From Candidatus Aceula meridiana (GTDB lineage Bacteria > Omnitrophota > Gorgyraeia > Zapsychrales > Aceulaceae): DNA of 42,974 bases. A program made the position numbers and the translations under genes. A model generated the notes under the pieces. That model had not been told where the DNA came from, searched no databases, and saw nothing but the letters and a program-made list of their open reading frames with translations. Where the stretch lies: positions 1 through 42,974 of the forward strand of contig JAVCDE010000024.1 of assembly GCA_030765185.1 (NCBI GenBank). The letters run 5' to 3'. Below are positions 1 to 9,579 of the stretch, piece after piece. The stretch's first letter is position 1. Each line of letters opens with the position of its first letter.

Positions 1-2115
1 AGACAGATAACCAGTTAATACCCTGGTCACTCATAGAGTTAATGTCAGCCCAATCAATGCCCTGAACACTCATATCATAAAGAGATAGCCAGTTAATACC
101 CTGGTCACTCATAGAGTTAATGTCTGCCCAATCAATCGATGCCTCAGAAAGGGTTTGGATGTCTGTCCAATTGACAGATGCTTCAGAAAGATTTTGGATG
201 TCTGTCCAATTGATTGAAGCTGCAGATAATACCTGGATGTCGTTCCAATTGACACCTTTTTTAGATAAGGAGTCAACATCGATCCAATTGATGCCTTGTG
301 CACTCATATCATAAAGAGACAACCAGTTAATGCCCTGGTCGCTCAGGGAGTTAATGTCCTCCCAATCAATACCCTGGATGCTCATGTCATAGAGAGATAG
401 CCAGTTAATACCCTGACTGCTCATAGAGTCAATGTCCTCCCAAACAATGCCCTTACTACTCATGTCATAAAGAGATAGCCAGTTAATGCCCTGGCTGCTC
501 ATAGCGTCAATGTCCTCCCAAACAATGCCCTGGCTACTCATGTCATAAAGAGATAACCAGTTAATGCCCTGGTCACTCATAGAGTTAATGTCAGCCCAAT
601 CAATCGATGCCTCAGAGATTGTCTGGATATCTGTCCAATTGACAGATGCTTCAGAAAGGGTTTGGATGTCTGTCCAATTGACAGATGCTTCAGAAAGATT
701 CTGGATGTCTGTCCAATTGATAGATGCCTTAGAAAGGTTCTGGATGTCGTTCCAATTGACACCTTTTTTAGACAAGGAGTCAACGTCGATCCAATTGATG
801 CCTTGTGCACTCATGTCATAAAGCGATAACCAGTTAATACCCTGGTCACTCATGGAGTTAATGTCAGCCCAATCAATGCCCTGAACACTCATATCATAGA
901 GCGATAGCCAGTTAATACCCTGGCTGCTCATAGAGTTAATGTCTGCCCAATCAATCGATGCCTCAGAAAGGTTCTGGATGTCCGTCCAATTGATACCCTG
1001 TTCTGCCATGTCATAAATATCTGACCAGCTAATTCCAGCGTTTGACATAAAAGAAATGTCAAGCCAATCAACACCCTGATTCGCAATATCATAAATAGCA
1101 AGCCAATTAATACCCTGATCACTCATGGTGCTGATGTCAGTCCAACAAATACCCTGGCTGGTCATAGAGCTGATATCGGCCCAATCAATAGATGCCTCAG
1201 AAAGGTTTTGGATGTCTGTCCAATTGATAGATGCCTCAGAACGATTTTGGATGTCTGTCCAATTGATAGATGCCTCAGAAAGATTTTGGATGTCTATCCA
1301 ATTGATAGATGCCTCAGAAAGGTTCTGGATGTCTGTCCAATTGATACCGGTCTTGGACAAAGAATCAATGTCGGCCCAATCAATGCCCTTGCTGCTCATG
1401 TCATAGAGAGATAACCAATTAATGCCTTGATCACTCATGGAGTTAATGTCCTCCCAATCAATGCCCTGAACACTCATGTCATAGAGCGATAGCCAGTTAA
1501 TGCCCTGGTCGCTCATGGAGTTGATGTCCGCCCAATCAATGCCCTGAATGCTCATATCATAGAGCGATAGCCAGTTAATGCCCTGACTGCTCATAGAGTC
1601 AATGTCCGCCCAAACAATGCCCTGGCTGCTCATATCATAGAGCGATAGCCAGTTAATGCCCTGATCACTCATGGAGTTAACATCATCCCAATCAATGCCT
1701 TGAATGCTCATGTCATAGAGAGACAGCCAGTTGATGCCCCGGGTTGTCAGATTGTTTAAGTCTGACCAGTTGATACCTGTTCTGCTAATCTGATAAATAT
1801 CTACCCAATTGATACCGGTCTTACTTATATTGTCGATATCACTCCAATTAACACCTCGAGAGCTCATATCATAGACTGAGAGCCAATTAACACCCGCGGA
1901 TGTCATATAATCTAAATCAGTCCAGTTAAGGCCTTGATCTGCCATCACTTCAAGATCTGTCCAGTTAACACCGGCTGTGGTGAGTTCTGCCAAATTGTCC
2001 CAGTTAACCGTTTCGGTCCAATCCACCCCCGCACCTGTCATATAAGCTAAGTCGTTCCAATTAACTCCTGCATCAGACATGCGACTTATATCCGTCCAAT
2101 TAATGCTGGCGGCGG
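1..2115 (-). repeat. 39-bp tandem array (13-aa units), C-terminal side
   Basis: About 54 consecutive units of 39 bp, recognisable on the plus strand by the invariant CCA (Trp codon) within words such as CCAATCAAT, CCAGTTAAT and CCAATTGAT, each 39 bp apart (for example 51 and 90). Main unit types: GINWLSLYDMSxQ, GIDWADINSMSDQ, SINWTDIQNLSEA, GINWIDVDSLSKK, GIVWEDIDSMSSQ. The first two alternate as a 26-residue pair. One shortened unit (GVDWTE joined to TVNWDNL) occurs near 2010-2035. The array continues past position 1. Confidence 0.95.
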
Positions 2116-4846
2116 CCATGGTGGCAACGCCACCAAAATCTATGCCCGCCTCTGTAAGATCTTGCAGGCCTGTCCAATTAATGCCAGCTGCCGCAAAACT
2201 TTCAAGCGCATTCCAATCTGCGGTGTTCCAGTTAGCGTTGCCATAGCCTGTGACAAAACTATTAAAATATGCCCAATCAACAGAGTCATCGGCACCACCT
2301 GCGACAATGGCCTGAGCAACAGACCCGAGGCTATTCCATTTTGTGGAAGAGAATGTAGAGTCAGCATAATCATCTGCGAGTTTTTGAATATCATTCCAGC
2401 AGACACCTTCCGTATGAATCTGGTCAAGGAACTCCGTAAGAAAATCCCATGCATCTTCATTCATATAATCATCCATGTAACCAAGCTGTTGAGCTAAATA
2501 ATTAAAACTCGTGCTGCTTAACGAAGAATCCGCATAATCATCAACCATTTTTTGCAAATCATTGAAGCATACGGTTTCGGTTGTGATATCGGCAATAATG
2601 GACTCCAAATTATTCCAATCTGTGGAATCTATGCCGGAATCATATAATCGTTTCATTGCCGTAATGGCATTGCTTCCTCCGCTCGTGTGAAAAACAGTTG
2701 CCATTGTGCCTAAAGCGTTCCAAGTATCAGAGCTCCAAGATGTTGCCTCAGAGTAGTCGTCGACAAGCTTGTCAAGCCCTGCCCAATTAGTATTGTTTGT
2801 AAGACTCATTAAGGCCTCCCAATCATCAACGCTCCAGTCTGCAGCTGCTGAAACTGTTGTTACAGCCTCTAACGATTCCCAATCTGCAGAATCCCAGCCA
2901 GCTGCCGAATAATCATCAACCAAGTCTTGCAGGCCTATCCAATTAATGCTGGCGCCTGTAAGATTCAGTAAGGCGTCCCAATCGCTAACGTCCCAGGCTG
3001 CACCTGAAAAAACTGCTGTTACAGTCTCTAGCGCTTCCCAATCTGCAGAATTCCAGCCAGCTGCAGAATAATCATCAACCAAGTCTTGCAGGCCTGTCCA
3101 ATTAATGCTGGCGTTACTCATGGTGGCAACATCACCAAAATCTATGCCGGCCTCTGTAAGGTCTTGCAGGCCTGTCCAATTAATCGAAGAAGTGCTCATG
3201 GTGGCAATATCACCAAAATCTATGCCGGCCTCTGTAAGGTCTTGCAGGCCTGTCCAATTAATGCCAGCTGCTGCAAAACTTTCGAGTGCATTCCAATCTG
3301 CAGTATCCCAGCCGGCGTTGCCATAGCCTGTGACAAAGCTTTCTAAATAATTCCAATCTGCAGTATCCCAGCCGGCGTTGCCATAGCCTGCGGCTAAACT
3401 TTCCAAAGAATTCCAATCGCTTGTAGAAAGCGTTGCGTTGGTAAGCTGTTCGAGATAATACCAGTCTGTGCTGGACCAATTACTACCTGCGTAATTACCG
3501 GCCATCCTATTAATGTTTTCCCATATTGTGCCGTCAAGCTCTGTAAGATTGTAGTCAGCTAAAAGCTGACTAAGCTGTCTCCACCGCTCTCCATCAAAAG
3601 TTGACCCGGCGGCGTAGTCAATGGTGAGTTTCTGTAAGCCCGCCCAATCAATATCTGCCCTGCTCATATCGCTAATGCTTGTCCAATTAACCCCCGCATC
3701 TGTTAAGGCGTAGAGATCCATCCAATTTATGCCTTTTGAGGTCAGGTCATAAATGGATGTCCAATTAATAGCGGATTTGCTCTCTCGTGCGATATCAGTC
3801 CAGTTGATATCTGCGGCTGTCATTTTATCAACTTCTGATTTGATAACACCGACATCGAGCCAATTGATGGTGCGGGTATCTTCGACAATCTCATCAATGG
3901 CGGTCCAGTTAATCGTATCGGTCTTGGCTTTAATAGCGGTGATGTCTGTCCAGTTAATGGTGTCTGTGGAGGCTTGGATGGTGTCAAGGGTGTCAATAGC
4001 CACAATGTCTTTTAGGTCAAAAACCTTCTGTTGTGTAATACCTTGGCCTGGGAGCCAGGCGCTTGAAATAAACAATGTTACTTTATACACGGCGTCTAAA
4101 TCGGTAGGAATCCATCCTAAATACCGCCCAACCCCGTTGTTAGCGTCAATACCAAGGGACTCTGCTGAACAAGGTCCTCCGCAACCGGTGTCGAAGGTAA
4201 AATTTGTTCCATCATACTTGTATATGCTTATGTTTGAATACATAATGCTTGCATACCAATCGGCCATATTAGGAGTTCGATCTTTATCCCCAACAGGTAC
4301 ACCTGTAATAAGATAGTCATCTTGTGTCTCATCATAGGAAACCACAATTTCATATTCAAGCCCAAATTCACGCAAATTAAACGTGTTAGATGTCCCATCG
4401 ATGTCTGTCTCTGATTGCAAAATTGCTTTTAAGGTGTATAGGTTTCCAGGCCTTGAAATCAATAAATCGTTATCATTGGAACCATAGTTTACCACTCCAG
4501 ATGCAAAATTATCGGTGACTGTTCCTTTGAGCGTACCATTTCCTGTATTATTGTAAATGGAAACCACGACCTCATCATCCGCCCAGGTGCCAGAAGAAAC
4601 AGTCTGTCCGGCCCCATTTACCAGGGTTAGTGTCGGTTGGTTTGCAAATGGTATTGAAGCAACATCATCATACATAGTTGAGAATGTGATATACGCATGG
4701 GCCATCATGTCGGCATCGGCAGAGACATCGCCGGCACCGTTGCCGCCTTGATAGTAGGTCGCGTGGGCGCTCGGACACAGTACGAGCGCCCCCAAAAGAA
4801 GACAAAAACTGACACAGAGAACCCTTGAGCACGTTGAAAAATTCAC
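1..4846 (-). CDS. Giant secreted 13-residue-repeat protein (3' end off window)
   Basis: An open frame with no stop runs from 4846 off the left edge; 1615 codons are visible. The GTG at 4846 puts a good Sec signal peptide at the N-terminus (MNFSTCSRVL, a hydrophobic core, cleavage near PSAHA, about residue 29). Residues 30 to about 290 form a Thr/Gly/Asn-rich, apparently beta-rich head with a CGGPC motif. The rest is repeats: a first block with TDTINW motifs, a middle block with 20- to 26-residue Trp units, then a long array of 13-residue units G-I-[ND]-W-x-[DS]-[IL]-x-x-[LM]-S-x-x. I recognise no family; an exported surface or filament-like protein is inference. There is no Shine-Dalgarno (SD) site before the GTG. 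The frame stays open upstream through ATG codons at 4978 and 5128, so the start is uncertain. The export-type operon at 9579-5218 lies just upstream on the same strand, so its product could be a substrate. Confidence 0.85.
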   Translation of the reverse strand, partial: MNFSTCSRVLCVSFCLLLGALVLCPSAHATYYQGGNGAGDVSADADMMAHAYITFSTMYDDVASIPFANQPTLTLVNGAGQTVSSGTWADDEVVVSIYNNTGNGTLKGTVTDNFASGVVNYGSNDNDLLISRPGNLYTLKAILQSETDIDGTSNTFNLREFGLEYEIVVSYDETQDDYLITGVPVGDKDRTPNMADWYASIMYSNISIYKYDGTNFTFDTGCGGPCSAESLGIDANNGVGRYLGWIPTDLDAVYKVTLFISSAWLPGQGITQQKVFDLKDIVAIDTLDTIQASTDTINWTDITAIKAKTDTINWTAIDEIVEDTRTINWLDVGVIKSEVDKMTAADINWTDIARESKSAINWTSIYDLTSKGINWMDLYALTDAGVNWTSISDMSRADIDWAGLQKLTIDYAAGSTFDGERWRQLSQLLADYNLTELDGTIWENINRMAGNYAGSNWSSTDWYYLEQLTNATLSTSDWNSLESLAAGYGNAGWDTADWNYLESFVTGYGNAGWDTADWNALESFAAAGINWTGLQDLTEAGIDFGDIATMSTSSINWTGLQDLTEAGIDFGDVATMSNASINWTGLQDLVDDYSAAGWNSADWEALETVTAVFSGAAWDVSDWDALLNLTGASINWIGLQDLVDDYSAAGWDSADWESLEAVTTVSAAADWSVDDWEALMSLTNNTNWAGLDKLVDDYSEATSWSSDTWNALGTMATVFHTSGGSNAITAMKRLYDSGIDSTDWNNLESIIADITTETVCFNDLQKMVDDYADSSLSSTSFNYLAQQLGYMDDYMNEDAWDFLTEFLDQIHTEGVCWNDIQKLADDYADSTFSSTKWNSLGSVAQAIVAGGADDSVDWAYFNSFVTGYGNANWNTADWNALESFAAAGINWTGLQDLTEAGIDFGGVATMAAASINWTDISRMSDAGVNWNDLAYMTGAGVDWTETVNWDNLAELTTAGVNWTDLEVMADQGLNWTDLDYMTSAGVNWLSVYDMSSRGVNWSDIDNISKTGINWVDIYQISRTGINWSDLNNLTTRGINWLSLYDMSIQGIDWDDVNSMSDQGINWLSLYDMSSQGIVWADIDSMSSQGINWLSLYDMSIQGIDWADINSMSDQGINWLSLYDMSVQGIDWEDINSMSDQGINWLSLYDMSSKGIDWADIDSLSKTGINWTDIQNLSEASINWIDIQNLSEASINWTDIQNRSEASINWTDIQNLSEASIDWADISSMTSQGICWTDISTMSDQGINWLAIYDIANQGVDWLDISFMSNAGISWSDIYDMAEQGINWTDIQNLSEASIDWADINSMSSQGINWLSLYDMSVQGIDWADINSMSDQGINWLSLYDMSAQGINWIDVDSLSKKGVNWNDIQNLSKASINWTDIQNLSEASVNWTDIQTLSEASVNWTDIQTISEASIDWADINSMSDQGINWLSLYDMSSQGIVWEDIDAMSSQGINWLSLYDMSSKGIVWEDIDSMSSQGINWLSLYDMSIQGIDWEDINSLSDQGINWLSLYDMSAQGINWIDVDSLSKKGVNWNDIQVLSAASINWTDIQNLSEASVNWTDIQTLSEASIDWADINSMSDQGINWLSLYDMSVQGIDWADINSMSDQGINWLSV
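124..1410 (-). repeat. Higher-order repeat blocks made of whole 39-bp units
   Basis: A cassette (GIDWADIxSMS, several SxNWTDIQxLSEA units, GxNWIDVDSLSKK, then GINWLSLYDMS pairs) occurs three times. The word ATCAATCGAT or ATCAATAGAT marks one edge at 131, 599 and 1184: spacings of 468 and 585 bp, 12 and 15 units. Another landmark, TGGATGTCGTTCC, is at 234 and 741: 507 bp, 13 units. The spacings are exact multiples of 39 bp, as expected for unequal exchange or slippage by whole units. Confidence 0.85.
2116..3600 (-). repeat. Middle repeat block with 60-, 78- and 159-bp periods
   Basis: Within the same frame the 13-residue rhythm gives way to longer Trp units. A 20-residue unit (GWDTADWNxLESFxxGYGNA) is repeated 60 bp apart (CAGTATCCCA at 3301 and 3361). 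A 26-residue unit containing INWTGLQDLTEAGIDFGD is repeated 78 bp apart (GTCTTGCAGG at 3083, 3161, 3239). A 53-residue unit is repeated 159 bp apart (ATCTGCAGAA at 2882 and 3041). Copies are more diverged than in the array at 1-2115. Confidence 0.8.
3624..4000 (-). repeat. N-terminal repeat block with TDTINW motifs
   Basis: The first repeats after the head domain have 15-residue spacing (TINWTDITAIKAKTD, TINWTAIDEIVEDTR, then TINWLDV), followed by units of 13 residues (INWTSIYDLTSKG, INWMDLYALTDAG, VNWTSISDMSRAD). The charged spacing and the I/L/W pattern suggest an amphipathic helical stretch; this is inference from the sequence. Confidence 0.7.
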
Positions 4847-4860
4847 TGCTGTACTTGCAC

Positions 4861-4927
4861 TGCTCGCTTTGCTCGCTGTGTTAGCTTCGCGCGTTACGCG
4901 TGCGAAGCGCACTTCGTGCGTCTTTTT
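4861..4927. repeat. GC-rich nested palindromic element
   Basis: GCTTCGC (4884-4890) pairs with GCGAAGC (4902-4908) around GCGTTACGC, and CGCAC (4908-4912) pairs with GTGCG (4916-4920), followed on the plus strand by TCTTTTTT. Its GC content is far above its surroundings. It could be a dispersed REP/MITE-like element or a plus-strand terminator-like hairpin. It lies between possible starts of the giant gene. Confidence 0.55.
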
Positions 4928-5155
4928 TGGGGAAGTTGGGCAGGAATAATGTTGAGAATAATAACGTTTTATATACATATACCCTTTTATAATATAAAAA
5001 AAATAATGCCCTGCATCGCGTTTTCTAAACAAAATAATATTCGCGATGGGGTGTTCGCAAAAAAACGAAGCACCGCACTTCCGTATAAAAGTATAAACGA
5101 TAAAATGGGCTTTTTCAATGTAAGTCATTGAAGCAACTAACTTTGTAATTTTTTT

Positions 5156-5217: not shown

Positions 5218-6228
5218 CTATTCATATTCATAGGGCTTATCACGTTCTAAAAGCGAATCTATTTTTGACTTCATTTCAATTTTTAATTCCGAAATCTTAT
5301 TTTTAATAAGAATTGTATCCGATGCATTAGGCTCTAATTGTACATATCTTGTATAATGCAAAAGGGCGGATTGCTTGTCATTTAAATAATTTTCGCAAAC
5401 AAATGCCAAGTTGTAATGAGTTGCCGCATCTTGCGGCATCAAGTTTGATACACGTTTGTATTCGGCAGCGGCCATCTCGTATTTGCCTTGTTCAAAAAAT
5501 AAATTCGCTAAATTGTAATGCAGCTTAATCGTGTCTTTTTTAAGAACTTGATTCTCGGCAATAAGCTCGGCCATACCTTTATCCATTTCTTCGATTGCGT
5601 CGGTGTCTTGCAAAACAACAACTTGGGCCGCGGAAGGCTTAGCCGTGGATGATGCTCTCTCTCCTGCCGGCACGACTTGCCCTGTAATATCCGGAGCAGA
5701 TTGATCGCCGATGACTGTTACCGGTTGCCCGGTTTCTTGTAATAGGTCGCGAATATGCTTGGCCTCCTGATACTCAGGGGTTTGCATTTTTAATTCCAGC
5801 TCATCTTTGAGGCCCTTAATCTGCTTTTCGTAATCTTGCTTAATTTGTTCAATCTCTGCACTCTTTTTCAAAAGCCTCTCACGTTCGCCGACTAAGGCAT
5901 TCAAACGATTATCTTGTATCGCTCTTTCTCCGCGCAAGGTATTAAGTTCTTCTTCGGTTTTGTCATTATCCCCTAACAATTTTTGATTTTCGTCGATTAA
6001 GTGCTTGAGACTTTTATTTATCTGCGTCATCTGCTCATCGCTTTGTGAAAGCTGTGCCACAGGCTGCCCTTGCATTTGTTGACTTGGCCTGCTCAAGAAA
6101 TTGCTGGCATCGATATCAGTTTCGATAAATTCACCTGGTTCTTGTTGCGGCGCTTGCGTAAAACCAGCCGGAGCGAATACAATCCCCATCAAGCAAAAAA
6201 TTGCAAAAAGAAAAAAAAGTTTTTTCAT
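5218..6228 (-). CDS. Secreted coiled-coil and TPR protein
   Basis: 336 residues. Start chosen at ATG 6228 because GAGG lies about 7 nt upstream and the protein then opens with a signal peptide (MKKLFFLFAIFCLMG, cleavage near residue 25); an upstream in-frame ATG at 6288 would bury the signal. Residues 60-150 are Glu/Lys/Leu-rich and likely coiled coil, 165-205 a Pro/Ser/Ala-rich linker, and 233-302 contain two tetratricopeptide repeats (LHYNLANLFFEQGKYEMAAAEY and a second copy with HYNLAFVCEN). It is the last gene of the ATPase-GspC-secretin operon. A periplasmic scaffold or pilotin-like role for the secretin is inferred from context; I do not recognise a named family. Confidence 0.85.
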   Translation of the reverse strand: MKKLFFLFAIFCLMGIVFAPAGFTQAPQQEPGEFIETDIDASNFLSRPSQQMQGQPVAQLSQSDEQMTQINKSLKHLIDENQKLLGDNDKTEEELNTLRGERAIQDNRLNALVGERERLLKKSAEIEQIKQDYEKQIKGLKDELELKMQTPEYQEAKHIRDLLQETGQPVTVIGDQSAPDITGQVVPAGERASSTAKPSAAQVVVLQDTDAIEEMDKGMAELIAENQVLKKDTIKLHYNLANLFFEQGKYEMAAAEYKRVSNLMPQDAATHYNLAFVCENYLNDKQSALLHYTRYVQLEPNASDTILIKNKISELKIEMKSKIDSLLERDKPYEYE

Positions 6229-6368
6229 ATTTGACCTCATCGGTTTTGTTGTGACGTTTATGTTATTAATATTAAATACTTTTATCATTTTATTAGTTTA
6301 ATGAAGTCCCTTTAAGCCTTTCGGGCTTAGGACAATCAGTCAAACAAATAAAAAAATTGCTTGATTGA

Positions 6369-7979
6369 TTAGTTTATATATTCCTTGTACGGCTTAATTG
6401 TTCCTTTAGAATCTTCATAATGTTCGTCACCGGTTACAATATAAGGCGTAATTAAAATAACAATTTCAGTTGTTGTAATCTCGTCTTTCGTAGAGCTAAA
6501 CAACGAACCTACCCAAGGCAAATCCATTAAAAGAGGAAAACCTTTTTTGACATGTTTTTTGTCATCTTTTTTAAGGCCACCCATAATAATTGTTGTGCCG
6601 TCTTTAACAATGACGCTGGTTTCAAGCTCGGTCTTATTAACCTGTGGAATACCTCCGCTTTGAGAAGTAATCGTACCAACAACACTTGAAATCTCAGGCC
6701 TAATTTTCATAGTCACAAACCCATCGTCATTGATAACGGCAGAGAGACTAATTTTTAAACCAACATCAACAAAGCGAACATCTTCGGATGTGATTGCGTT
6801 ATCGCCTGTTCCCGACGTTGTTGAAACAATGTAGGGCACGGTATCACCGATGTGAATACGAGCCTCTTCGTTGTTGACAACAAGAAGTTTTGGACTTGAA
6901 AGAATCTTAGTGTCCGAAACTTGTTTTAACGCGCGCACTGCCATAGTAAAGTGATCTGCTCCTACGCTGCCAATTCCAATCTTGGCAAATTTAGAAAACA
7001 GGTTATCGCTTGAGGTAAGACCGCTTTCATCCAAAAAGACATTGTCAAAAGAAAGCTTGGCGATTTCGGGGTCGGTGCTACCTAAGAAATCCAATGACCA
7101 GTCAACACCAAAATCATATTCGGGCTTAAAGATAACCTGCAAAATTTGCATATGAACTAAAACTTCTTTGGTCTGCACATCAAGGCTTTTGACAACCTCC
7201 ATGATTTCTTTGCGGCGATCGGGAAGCGCGCGTACAATAATTTTGTTCGAGCGTACATCGGCTGTGATCGAGCCTACTGCGTTTTCGGCTAGCCGTGCAT
7301 TAAGTTGCTCAACAACTGTGGCGGCCTTAGAATACTGCAAATTGTACACATAGCTCTGCATGGGTTGCTCAATCTCTTTGATCGCATTGAGCATTTTTTC
7401 AATTGCCTCCGGCGTATCAATCATAACAACGGTGCCTGTGTCCTCATCAATAACAATTTTTCCTAGGCTACTTTTGATACTCTCTAAAGTCGACAAAGCA
7501 TAGCCTGGCTTGGAATAATTGAGATGAATGGTTTTTACAATGCTTTGGTCGTTAAATTTCCGCCCGTGAGCGCCTTGAAACTCTGACTCACTCATAACAT
7601 GAACAATTTCGTTTGTGACTTCATAGGCTAAATTATTTGAAATCAAAATAATATCTAAGGCATCTTGGATAGAAACACTTTTTAAATAAAGTGTGACACG
7701 CCCCTCTACGCTTTTACTTGTCACAACATTGAAATCGCCTTTAATTGCTAAAAATTTAATAACATCGATAATGTTCATGTCGCGGACGTCAAGTGTAATT
7801 TTACGATTAATACGGTCGACTAAAGGCTCAGAAATTTCATTGGTCAATATCGGTTTTGGAGAATCATACGGCCCAATGGCAAAACTTGATGATGGCGCAA
7901 GCATCGTATATATGCCGGCGCACATTAAGCTGACTAAAAAAACAAGAAAAATTGCAATCATTTTTTTGCAAGGTTTCAT
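6369..7979 (-). CDS. Secretin (GspD/PilQ-type outer-membrane channel)
   Basis: 536 residues with an N-terminal signal segment (cleavage near residue 34, SSSFA). Residues about 55-125 match the N0/STN domain (LDVRDMNIIDVIKFLAIKG, then VTLYLKSVSIQDALDIIL). Two N1-like secretin_N modules follow (KPGYALSTLESIKSSLGKIV and SKAATVVEQLNARL). The C-terminal secretin core has the expected features: ILSSPKLLVVNNEEA, IGDTVPY, VGLKISLSAVI, ETSVIVKDGTTIIMGGL, and PWVGSLFS followed by EIVILITPYIV. It would form the gated outer-membrane ring of a type II secretion or type IV pilus related machine. It is shorter than many GspD (about 650) because it has fewer N modules. It overlaps the upstream GspC-like gene by 4 bp. 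Confidence 0.93.
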   Translation of the reverse strand: MKPCKKMIAIFLVFLVSLMCAGIYTMLAPSSSFAIGPYDSPKPILTNEISEPLVDRINRKITLDVRDMNIIDVIKFLAIKGDFNVVTSKSVEGRVTLYLKSVSIQDALDIILISNNLAYEVTNEIVHVMSESEFQGAHGRKFNDQSIVKTIHLNYSKPGYALSTLESIKSSLGKIVIDEDTGTVVMIDTPEAIEKMLNAIKEIEQPMQSYVYNLQYSKAATVVEQLNARLAENAVGSITADVRSNKIIVRALPDRRKEIMEVVKSLDVQTKEVLVHMQILQVIFKPEYDFGVDWSLDFLGSTDPEIAKLSFDNVFLDESGLTSSDNLFSKFAKIGIGSVGADHFTMAVRALKQVSDTKILSSPKLLVVNNEEARIHIGDTVPYIVSTTSGTGDNAITSEDVRFVDVGLKISLSAVINDDGFVTMKIRPEISSVVGTITSQSGGIPQVNKTELETSVIVKDGTTIIMGGLKKDDKKHVKKGFPLLMDLPWVGSLFSSTKDEITTTEIVILITPYIVTGDEHYEDSKGTIKPYKEYIN

Positions 7980-8695
7980 AGGCGCACTTCCATTTCTTCA
8001 GTTTGATAGCCGAAAATAACGCGATCGGCATAAATGATTTTTACGGTAATCTCATCAAAGCTTTCGCCTTGTTTTAAAAAATATGTCATTCCTGTCTCGG
8101 TTTGCTCAACCATGACCGAGGCGGTATCGGGTGAGTCTAGCCAAGAAATTCCAACAAGTTTTAATTTTTGTAATTTTTCAGAGAGGAGCTGCGTTCCCAA
8201 AGGGACGTTGCTTGCTTTATCGCCTTGCTTTTTCTCGTAGGGACGAAAAATATTGCGTTGCAAAACATATTCTAAGAAACTATCGACATTTTCATATTGC
8301 GGCATAACGCTTGAGGCAAATTGCAATCCCTTGGCTTTGACATCGGAAGCAAAATCAAGCCCACTCTTTAACTGGCTCATTCCGCTTTTGTAAATGCCGG
8401 CCAAAAAAATGACGCAAATAATAATTAAAACACCCATGATCATATTGATTTGCTTAATCCCAAATGATTGTCCTTTAGGAAAAATTCCTTGGAGGCCTTG
8501 CAAAAGCCCGCCAATATTTAGAGCAATCGGCGGGATCGTAATGCCCGGGCCTTTAACAGCAGCGGCAACGGATTGCGCTGTGCCTACAGCCGTAGCTGAG
8601 GCTGCTGCGACTTGCCCTGTTGGCTCGCCAGATTCCTTAGCGCCTTCTTCGATGATGCGTAATAATTTTTGTTCAGCAGTTTCTTTTTTTGCCAT
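7976..8695 (-). CDS. GspC/PilP-like inner-membrane protein
   Basis: 239 residues. A cytoplasmic Ala/Gly-rich N-terminus is followed by one membrane helix at about 84-103 (MIMGVLIIICVIFLAGIY), then a periplasmic part. The last 65 residues (LKLVGISWLDSPDTASVMVE, then TYFLKQGESFDEITVKII) have the beta-sandwich pattern of the GspC homology region / PilP domain, which contacts the secretin N0 domain. Translation is probably coupled to the secretin, whose start overlaps this stop by 4 bp. The N-terminal cytoplasmic stretch of about 80 residues is longer than in typical GspC. GspC versus PilP cannot be settled by eye. Confidence 0.75.
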   Translation of the reverse strand: MAKKETAEQKLLRIIEEGAKESGEPTGQVAAASATAVGTAQSVAAAVKGPGITIPPIALNIGGLLQGLQGIFPKGQSFGIKQINMIMGVLIIICVIFLAGIYKSGMSQLKSGLDFASDVKAKGLQFASSVMPQYENVDSFLEYVLQRNIFRPYEKKQGDKASNVPLGTQLLSEKLQKLKLVGISWLDSPDTASVMVEQTETGMTYFLKQGESFDEITVKIIYADRVIFGYQTEEMEVRL

Positions 8696-8706
8696 GACTA
8701 TTTTTT

Positions 8707-9579
8707 TTACATTGATTTTGAAATGCGGCGAAATGATTCAGCTCGGCCCCATCCCTGATTTTCTTTGGACAACACATCTAAAACAATTTGACGGTCAACA
8801 ACTTCTTTGTTTTGAAGGATAAGCTCCTTAAGTGTTTTGTGGCAAAGCATGGTAATGTGGCGTGGGTATCCTCTGGAATAATTATAAATCTCGCTCATGG
8901 CCTCATCATTAAAAAGCTCCATACGTCCCTGATATCCGGCTTGATTAATTCGGTATTTAATCAGCTCTCTGGTTTCCTGAATATCTAAAGGATTTAACGT
9001 ATATTTAAAACTGACACGATCAATAAAATTCGGCATCGCGACAAGCTTAGAATAAAGTTCAAGCTGCCCTAAAAGGACAAGTTGAATAAGTTTGTACTCA
9101 TTAGTTTCAAAATTTAATAAAACACGCAGTACCTCAAGGGTCACCATGTCAAGCTTTTGGGCTTCATCGATAATGAGCGTGATGGTTTGCTTCTCTTCGT
9201 TTTTTTGGATTAGAAATTTCTCAACCGCATCACGAAGCTCTAAAATGTCAACGGCCCCTGGCTGGCCCTGAGGAAAGTCTACATTAAAATTACGTAAAAG
9301 TGATGTGAGGAATTGTTCTTCGGTTTCAAAATCGGGATTTAGAATAATATGAAATATAATATTGCCGCGGTCTTTAAGCTCTTGAACAAGCTTTCGCGAA
9401 AGGGTTGTTTTGCCAGTACCAATATCCCCTAAAACAACGGCGAGTCCACGGCGCAGGCGCGTCTCGATAAGGATGCTGGTCATGGCCATATCATGTTCTT
9501 TAGTAAGATAAAAAAATTGAGGGTCTGGGCTCGTCGAGAAAGGCTCTTTTTGAAATCCTAGTAGGGTATGATATGCCAT
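8707..9579 (-). CDS. ExeA/GspA-like AAA ATPase
   Basis: 290 residues. It opens with the family signature YHTLLGFQKEPFSTSPDPQFFY, then Walker A GDIGTGKTT (51-59), Walker B LIIDEA (135-140) and the helical C-terminal region with YSRGYPRHITMLCH. ExeA/GspA ATPases work with GspB in placing secretins through peptidoglycan, and similar MSHA-type ATPases occur in pilus loci. Here it lacks the C-terminal peptidoglycan-binding domain of Aeromonas ExeA, so only the ATPase part is present. It is first in the operon; no SD site is seen before ATG 9579, but a promoter-like pair lies at 9640-9667. Confidence 0.88.
   Translation of the reverse strand: MAYHTLLGFQKEPFSTSPDPQFFYLTKEHDMAMTSILIETRLRRGLAVVLGDIGTGKTTLSRKLVQELKDRGNIIFHIILNPDFETEEQFLTSLLRNFNVDFPQGQPGAVDILELRDAVEKFLIQKNEEKQTITLIIDEAQKLDMVTLEVLRVLLNFETNEYKLIQLVLLGQLELYSKLVAMPNFIDRVSFKYTLNPLDIQETRELIKYRINQAGYQGRMELFNDEAMSEIYNYSRGYPRHITMLCHKTLKELILQNKEVVDRQIVLDVLSKENQGWGRAESFRRISKSM

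Follow-up and report, generated by a model that had tools for sequence, protein, structure and literature searches.

A giant gene at the end of a contig of Candidatus Aceula meridiana, a member of the almost uncultured phylum Omnitrophota, encodes a signal peptide, a head and a long array of Trp repeats, and is embedded in a conserved cluster with genes for an F-type ATPase. We see about an even chance that the giant is exported and forms the filament of a surface apparatus conserved in Omnitrophota, and we infer its attachment and its coupling to the ATPase. The window, the whole stretch of 42,974 nucleotides analyzed here (G000:C32:1-42974), belongs to a 1.9-Mb genome of 33 contigs, and window base 1 is the contig end.

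The 5' part of the giant gene (2..5128, minus strand), supported by homologues, is an open frame of 1709 codons from 5128 to 2 that runs off the window edge. The original prediction of an unbroken minus frame of at least 1615 codons is borne out; that count starts from 4846. The true start is uncertain and lies between 5128 and about 4846. A hairpin-forming stretch (GAAGTGCGCTTCGCACGC) is located at 4870-5060, upstream of the signal peptide, and is perhaps a small inserted element obscuring the true start codon. The signal peptide (approximately 4757..4846, minus) is recognized, as predicted, from a hydrophobic segment with a core at about residues 97-124 and from a similar layout in relatives. 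The giant has no other TM segment, which supports its predicted secretion as far as these two observations go. The head (about 270-290 residues; 3959..4756, minus) is defined by the layout in relatives and agrees with the predicted length of roughly 290 residues, the first [IV]NW, at residue 390, being preceded by about 270 residues outside the repeat. It has no Pfam match, and a profile search against Pfam finds no known adhesive domain in it. Spacing analysis divides the remainder into an irregular Trp-repeat region with varied unit lengths (2012..3958, minus; Trp spacings of, e.g., 5, 15, 20, and 26 residues) and a phased array of 52 Trp residues spaced exactly 13 residues apart, which extends past the contig end (2..2011, minus). 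The original rule of one Trp every 13 residues therefore holds for the phased part of the array only.

The C-terminus was expected to lie outside the window. Elsewhere in the window genome, the giant repeat is matched at the very end of contig C29, where a minus-strand frame (L007:17844-14944) encodes 966 residues with 53 phased Trp residues, the C-terminal domain, and a stop codon. This frame is likely the 3' part of the window giant. The ends of C29 and C32 do not overlap and the contigs are not joined by sequence, so that further repeats are missing and the junction is an inferred one. Counted from the first ATG, the visible total of about 2,675 residues (5.1 kb plus 2.9 kb) is a minimum. 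The junction is supported by synteny with the related genome G017, in which one 104-kb contig carries the gene order of C29 and C32 placed end to end. The G017 giant is unbroken, with an ORF of 32.9 kb, beyond the 20 kb that marks the giant ORFs of Omnitrophota, encoding 10,962 residues (about 1.20 MDa; pI 4.05; 0.0% Cys; 0.2% Pro) and about 797 units, 787 of which are in one register. As to the C-terminal anchor or sorting domain considered in the original prediction, no known one is recognized; what is found is a conserved C-terminal helical domain that ends at about VVVK[TS]WFES and lies on C29 in the window genome.

The repeat consensus is G-[IV]-N-W-x-D-[ILV]-x-x-[LMI]-[ST]-x-[TSAQ]. Besides Trp, strong conservation is found at Gly (first position) and Asn (third position); among the G017 units, Trp (by construction) and Asn reach about 100%, Asp 93%, and Gly 83%. 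Exact 13-residue spacing between Trp residues occurs 112 times in the repeat region (60 in the window part and 52 in the C29 part), compared with a mean of 4.5 and a maximum of 11 in shuffled sequences. The variable positions have no clear periodicity in G017 and follow a 26-residue (two-unit) pattern in the window and several relatives. In G017, 741 of 797 39-mers are distinct and the codons of the invariant residues vary freely, indicating that the repetition is selected and not an artefact. On this sequence evidence, the array is an old, selected repetition. Contigs break in the array in the window genome and most relatives, and local 78-bp duplications are found in it, as would be the case for an assembly artefact or for open, non-selected satellite DNA. 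That explanation is extremely unlikely in view of the unbroken 10,962-codon frame in G017, the distinct 39-mers and varied codons of invariant residues, and the presence of the repeat in 54 of the 384 genomes sampled across Omnitrophota. The repeat, for which an artefact had originally been considered, is real.

As its first description suggested, the repeat appears not to belong to any described family. Searches of the repeats against Pfam, NCBIfam, PHROGs, and the PDB give no credible match, and no known repeat family (TPR, Sel1, LRR, pentapeptide, or other Pfam) scores over its cut-off across the repeats. The Lysostaphin N-terminal repeat (Lysostaphin_N, PF25533) resembles the array in its tandem repeats and gives a local profile match, but the score is under the cut-off (51.2 versus 60 bits), and the match is judged to reflect the repeat period, not homology. 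DUF6990, DMC1, and other weak family matches to the giant are under their cut-offs, and weak PDB matches (CLEC4M, flagellin, LDL receptor, and coiled coils) are not credible. A tblastn match in Mesomycoplasma hyorhinis (20% identity) lies among variable lipoproteins, on the strand that does not encode the annotated protein, and is judged spurious. Phage tape measure proteins (PMC3271669) likewise have extended, uniform repeats in which aromatic residues occupy set positions, and the array differs in length between species; the giant might accordingly be a length ruler, its array setting the length of another structure. This role is very improbable for a protein with a signal peptide that matches no phage record, gives sub-threshold PHROGs matches only, and has no recognized tail-like structural genes among its scanned neighbours.

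AlphaFold2 predicts one helix of 8-9 residues per unit for 24 units (312 aa) with 113 ungapped phased segments, at low confidence (pLDDT 45; pTM 0.21). For 600 aa with 22 relatives it gives helical periodicity and no reliable tertiary fold, and for the C-terminal domain long helices with pLDDT blocks up to 79. A long fibrous or solenoid protein, as first proposed, fits the 787 phased units, but the AlphaFold2 confidence is too low to assign the fold. The Gly-Ile-Asn segment may serve as a helix-capping turn, with Trp, Ile, and Leu forming one buried face.

The original prediction did not include the gene context, a phylum-wide cluster of type II secretion system (T2SS)-type genes and an F-type ATPase. 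Read in transcriptional order, the locus encodes an ExeA-like ATPase, a GspC-like protein, a secretin, a TPR protein, the giant, a 440-470-aa protein, the F-type ATPase, and Gsp proteins. The window carries, all on the minus strand, the ExeA-like AAA ATPase (8707..9579; AAA_22 over cut-off, conserved position), the GspC-like inner-membrane protein (7976..8695; a weak sub-cut-off NF041515 match, one TM segment, conserved position), the secretin of the GspD/PilQ type (6369..7979; Pfam Secretin, Secretin_N, and STN), and the TPR protein with an N-terminal hydrophobic segment (5218..6288; Pfam TPR over cut-off). The 440-470-aa neighbour of the giant has a signal peptide, a conserved periplasmic part, and a C-terminal TM segment followed by a charged tail. 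Many relatives have an exported protein with an FGE-sulfatase domain, or two of them, ahead of the giant (e.g. L096:12779-16050); they are not found there in the window genome.

The ATPase block is arranged as alpha, epsilon, two small two-TM proteins (73 and 80 aa), a b-delta fusion, gamma, and beta. The small pair is located at L007:11006-11476 on C29, and the 80-aa member, a diverged companion of the other, is retained by many relatives. The 73-aa protein has the marks of a c subunit: an RNP loop, and a TM2 Glu that is present in all aligned homologues reaching it. For subunit a, no PF00119 match is found in the window genome (about 95% complete), and the cluster contains no such gene. Alpha scores over the AtpA cut-off and under the cut-offs of the gliding families. 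A further ATPase gene pair lies on C7, its V/A type being judged solely from frame lengths.

On C29, as in relatives, beta is directly followed by GspE, placing the F-type ATPase <10 kb from type-IV-filament-type genes. The downstream block encodes GspE with a PilZ domain, GspF, GspG, further pseudopilins (GspJ named), GspK, and a PilM/PilN-type GspL. The major pilin-like protein passes the curated GspG cut-off (138 versus 88.85 bits); GspE and the secretin score about equally with T2SS and pilus families, under both cut-offs. The PilT genes of the window genome lie on other contigs, C7 and C15. The cluster GspE (L007:5529-7748, C29) carries an MshEN domain besides its C-terminal PilZ domain, a combination that suggests cyclic-di-GMP control. 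The 1.9-Mb window genome encodes six secretins and many GspE/PilT-type ATPases, on contigs C4, C12, C15, C20, and C32.

The repeat and the ATPase occur together. Among 54 relatives within the order, scored at E <= 1e-30 for the repeat and >= 62% identity for ATPase alpha, 31 have both, 18 have neither, two have the ATPase only (G041 and G049), and three have the repeat only (G001, G006, and G043; Fisher p = 2e-9, uncorrected for kinship). All five discordant genomes have a contig end at or close to the position of the array. Outside the order, the expected flanks are found in 12 genomes (G115, G102, G062, G058, G100, G221, G236, G139, G150, G088, G073, and G085), and in G359 the giant is present with the 440-aa gene not adjacent. 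A scan of 84,980 named genomes for the 440-aa family finds 20 loci, 19 of them titled Omnitrophota, Omnitrophica, Omnitrophus, or Ca. Aceula and one titled 'bacterium' only. The alpha of genome G012 is diverged (47% identity), and its contig C25 (L112 and L172) holds a different giant frame of 4,694 aa nearly devoid of NW repeats, with the 440-aa domain fused at the C-terminus. In G012, a giant plus ATPase persists with another architecture.

In the filament reading, the giant would cross the inner membrane by Sec and exit through the co-encoded secretin. Each repeat would form a helix of about 8 residues, with the Gly-[Ile/Val]-Asn turn joining the units and the Trp, Ile, and Leu positions stacking so as to build a long, acidic fibre free of cysteine. 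The head would face outward and touch other cells or surfaces, while the C-terminal domain would remain cell-bound through the adjacent inner-membrane protein of 440 residues. The cytosolic tail of that protein may link the base of the fibre to the ATPase, such that ATP hydrolysis would extend, turn, or pull the fibre. The signal peptide, fixed gene order, co-occurrence with the ATPase, and 787-unit register with free synonymous codons argue for the filament, as do the low-confidence helix per unit, the layout of the 440-aa partner, the GspG score over cut-off, and the attachment role in PMC10066038. The AlphaFold2 fold that is not confident, the head with no known adhesive domain, the arrangement in G359, and the unjoined contigs argue against it. 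A role in contact or adhesion, or as a sheath, as first suggested, may be envisaged for the giant.

Some of the same features allow two other placements of the giant, each of which we hold to be unlikely. It could remain within the cell as a periplasmic or envelope-spanning spacer, or as a force-transmitting element of the same machine, consistent with a signal peptide unaccompanied by a recognized surface-sorting domain and with neighbours that are envelope proteins; up to 10,962 residues, however, seems far beyond the needs of a periplasm, and a secretin is co-encoded. Alternatively, the giant could be secreted as a passive coat or sheath, shed or covering the cell, with the ATPase serving the secretion machine instead of moving a fibre. 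Its very regular, acidic, Cys-free composition would suit a coat, and passages of PMC10066038 propose one for the giant of Velamenicoccus archaeovorus, but the conserved C-terminal domain and the partner gene suggest anchoring, and a coat by itself leaves the tight linkage to the F-type ATPase unexplained.

The cluster is almost certainly the locus described in passages of Seymour et al. 2023 (PMC10066038), where a non-respiratory F-type ATPase adjoining genes of a type-4a pilus forms a 'symbiotic' cluster of Omnitrophota for which attachment and motility on host cells are proposed. Phylum and the ATPase beside type-IV-filament-type genes agree; the published cluster is assigned to a type-4a pilus, whereas the major pseudopilin found here, GspG, is of T2SS type, subunit a is missing, and PilT is encoded elsewhere. 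The same work separately reports giant ORFs, such as a 39,678-aa protein of Velamenicoccus archaeovorus, and in those passages neither a giant gene in the cluster nor a Trp repeat is mentioned. The published giants are likewise very long and exported-looking, but their descriptions list few domains and, often, numerous TM helices, whereas the present giant shows just a signal peptide and one type of repeat, 13 residues long. Our literature search finds no published link between giant ORFs and the ATPase-pilus cluster and no description of the repeat, although an earlier one may exist.

Compared with a type II secretion system, the cluster shares the secretin and GspE, F, G, J, K, and L-type genes and differs in having the F-type ATPase and giant genes inside it. 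Compared with a complete FoF1 ATP synthase, it retains the c-subunit marks (TM2 carboxylate and polar loop), and subunit a is not found. The F1-like ATPases of Mycoplasma (types 2 and 3, including the M. mobile gliding motor; PMC3369863, PMC11864180) also have extra membrane proteins in their clusters and a proposed link to surface attachment and motion. Against those gliding families, however, alpha and beta reach 416.5 versus 600 and 417.3 versus 850 bits and are closer to ordinary AtpA/AtpD, and here b-delta and c are present and the cluster includes secretion genes of the double-membrane kind. Novelty appears to lie in the family of repeats, in its constant position within the cluster, in machinery of T2SS character, and in the lack of subunit a. 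It is possible, though rather doubtful, that the whole is a new machine, a T2SS-type apparatus coupled to a rotary F-type ATPase lacking an ion channel that works a megadalton filament of a new 13-residue Trp repeat, with which other cells would be reached, held, or moved upon.

Two puzzles of Omnitrophota, the giant proteins and the F-type ATPase beside filament genes, are hereby joined into one testable machine, with the giant as the candidate fibre and the 440-aa protein as the candidate linker. Should the fibre indeed be worked by the ATPase, double-membrane bacteria would offer a case of rotary ATPases put to a new use.
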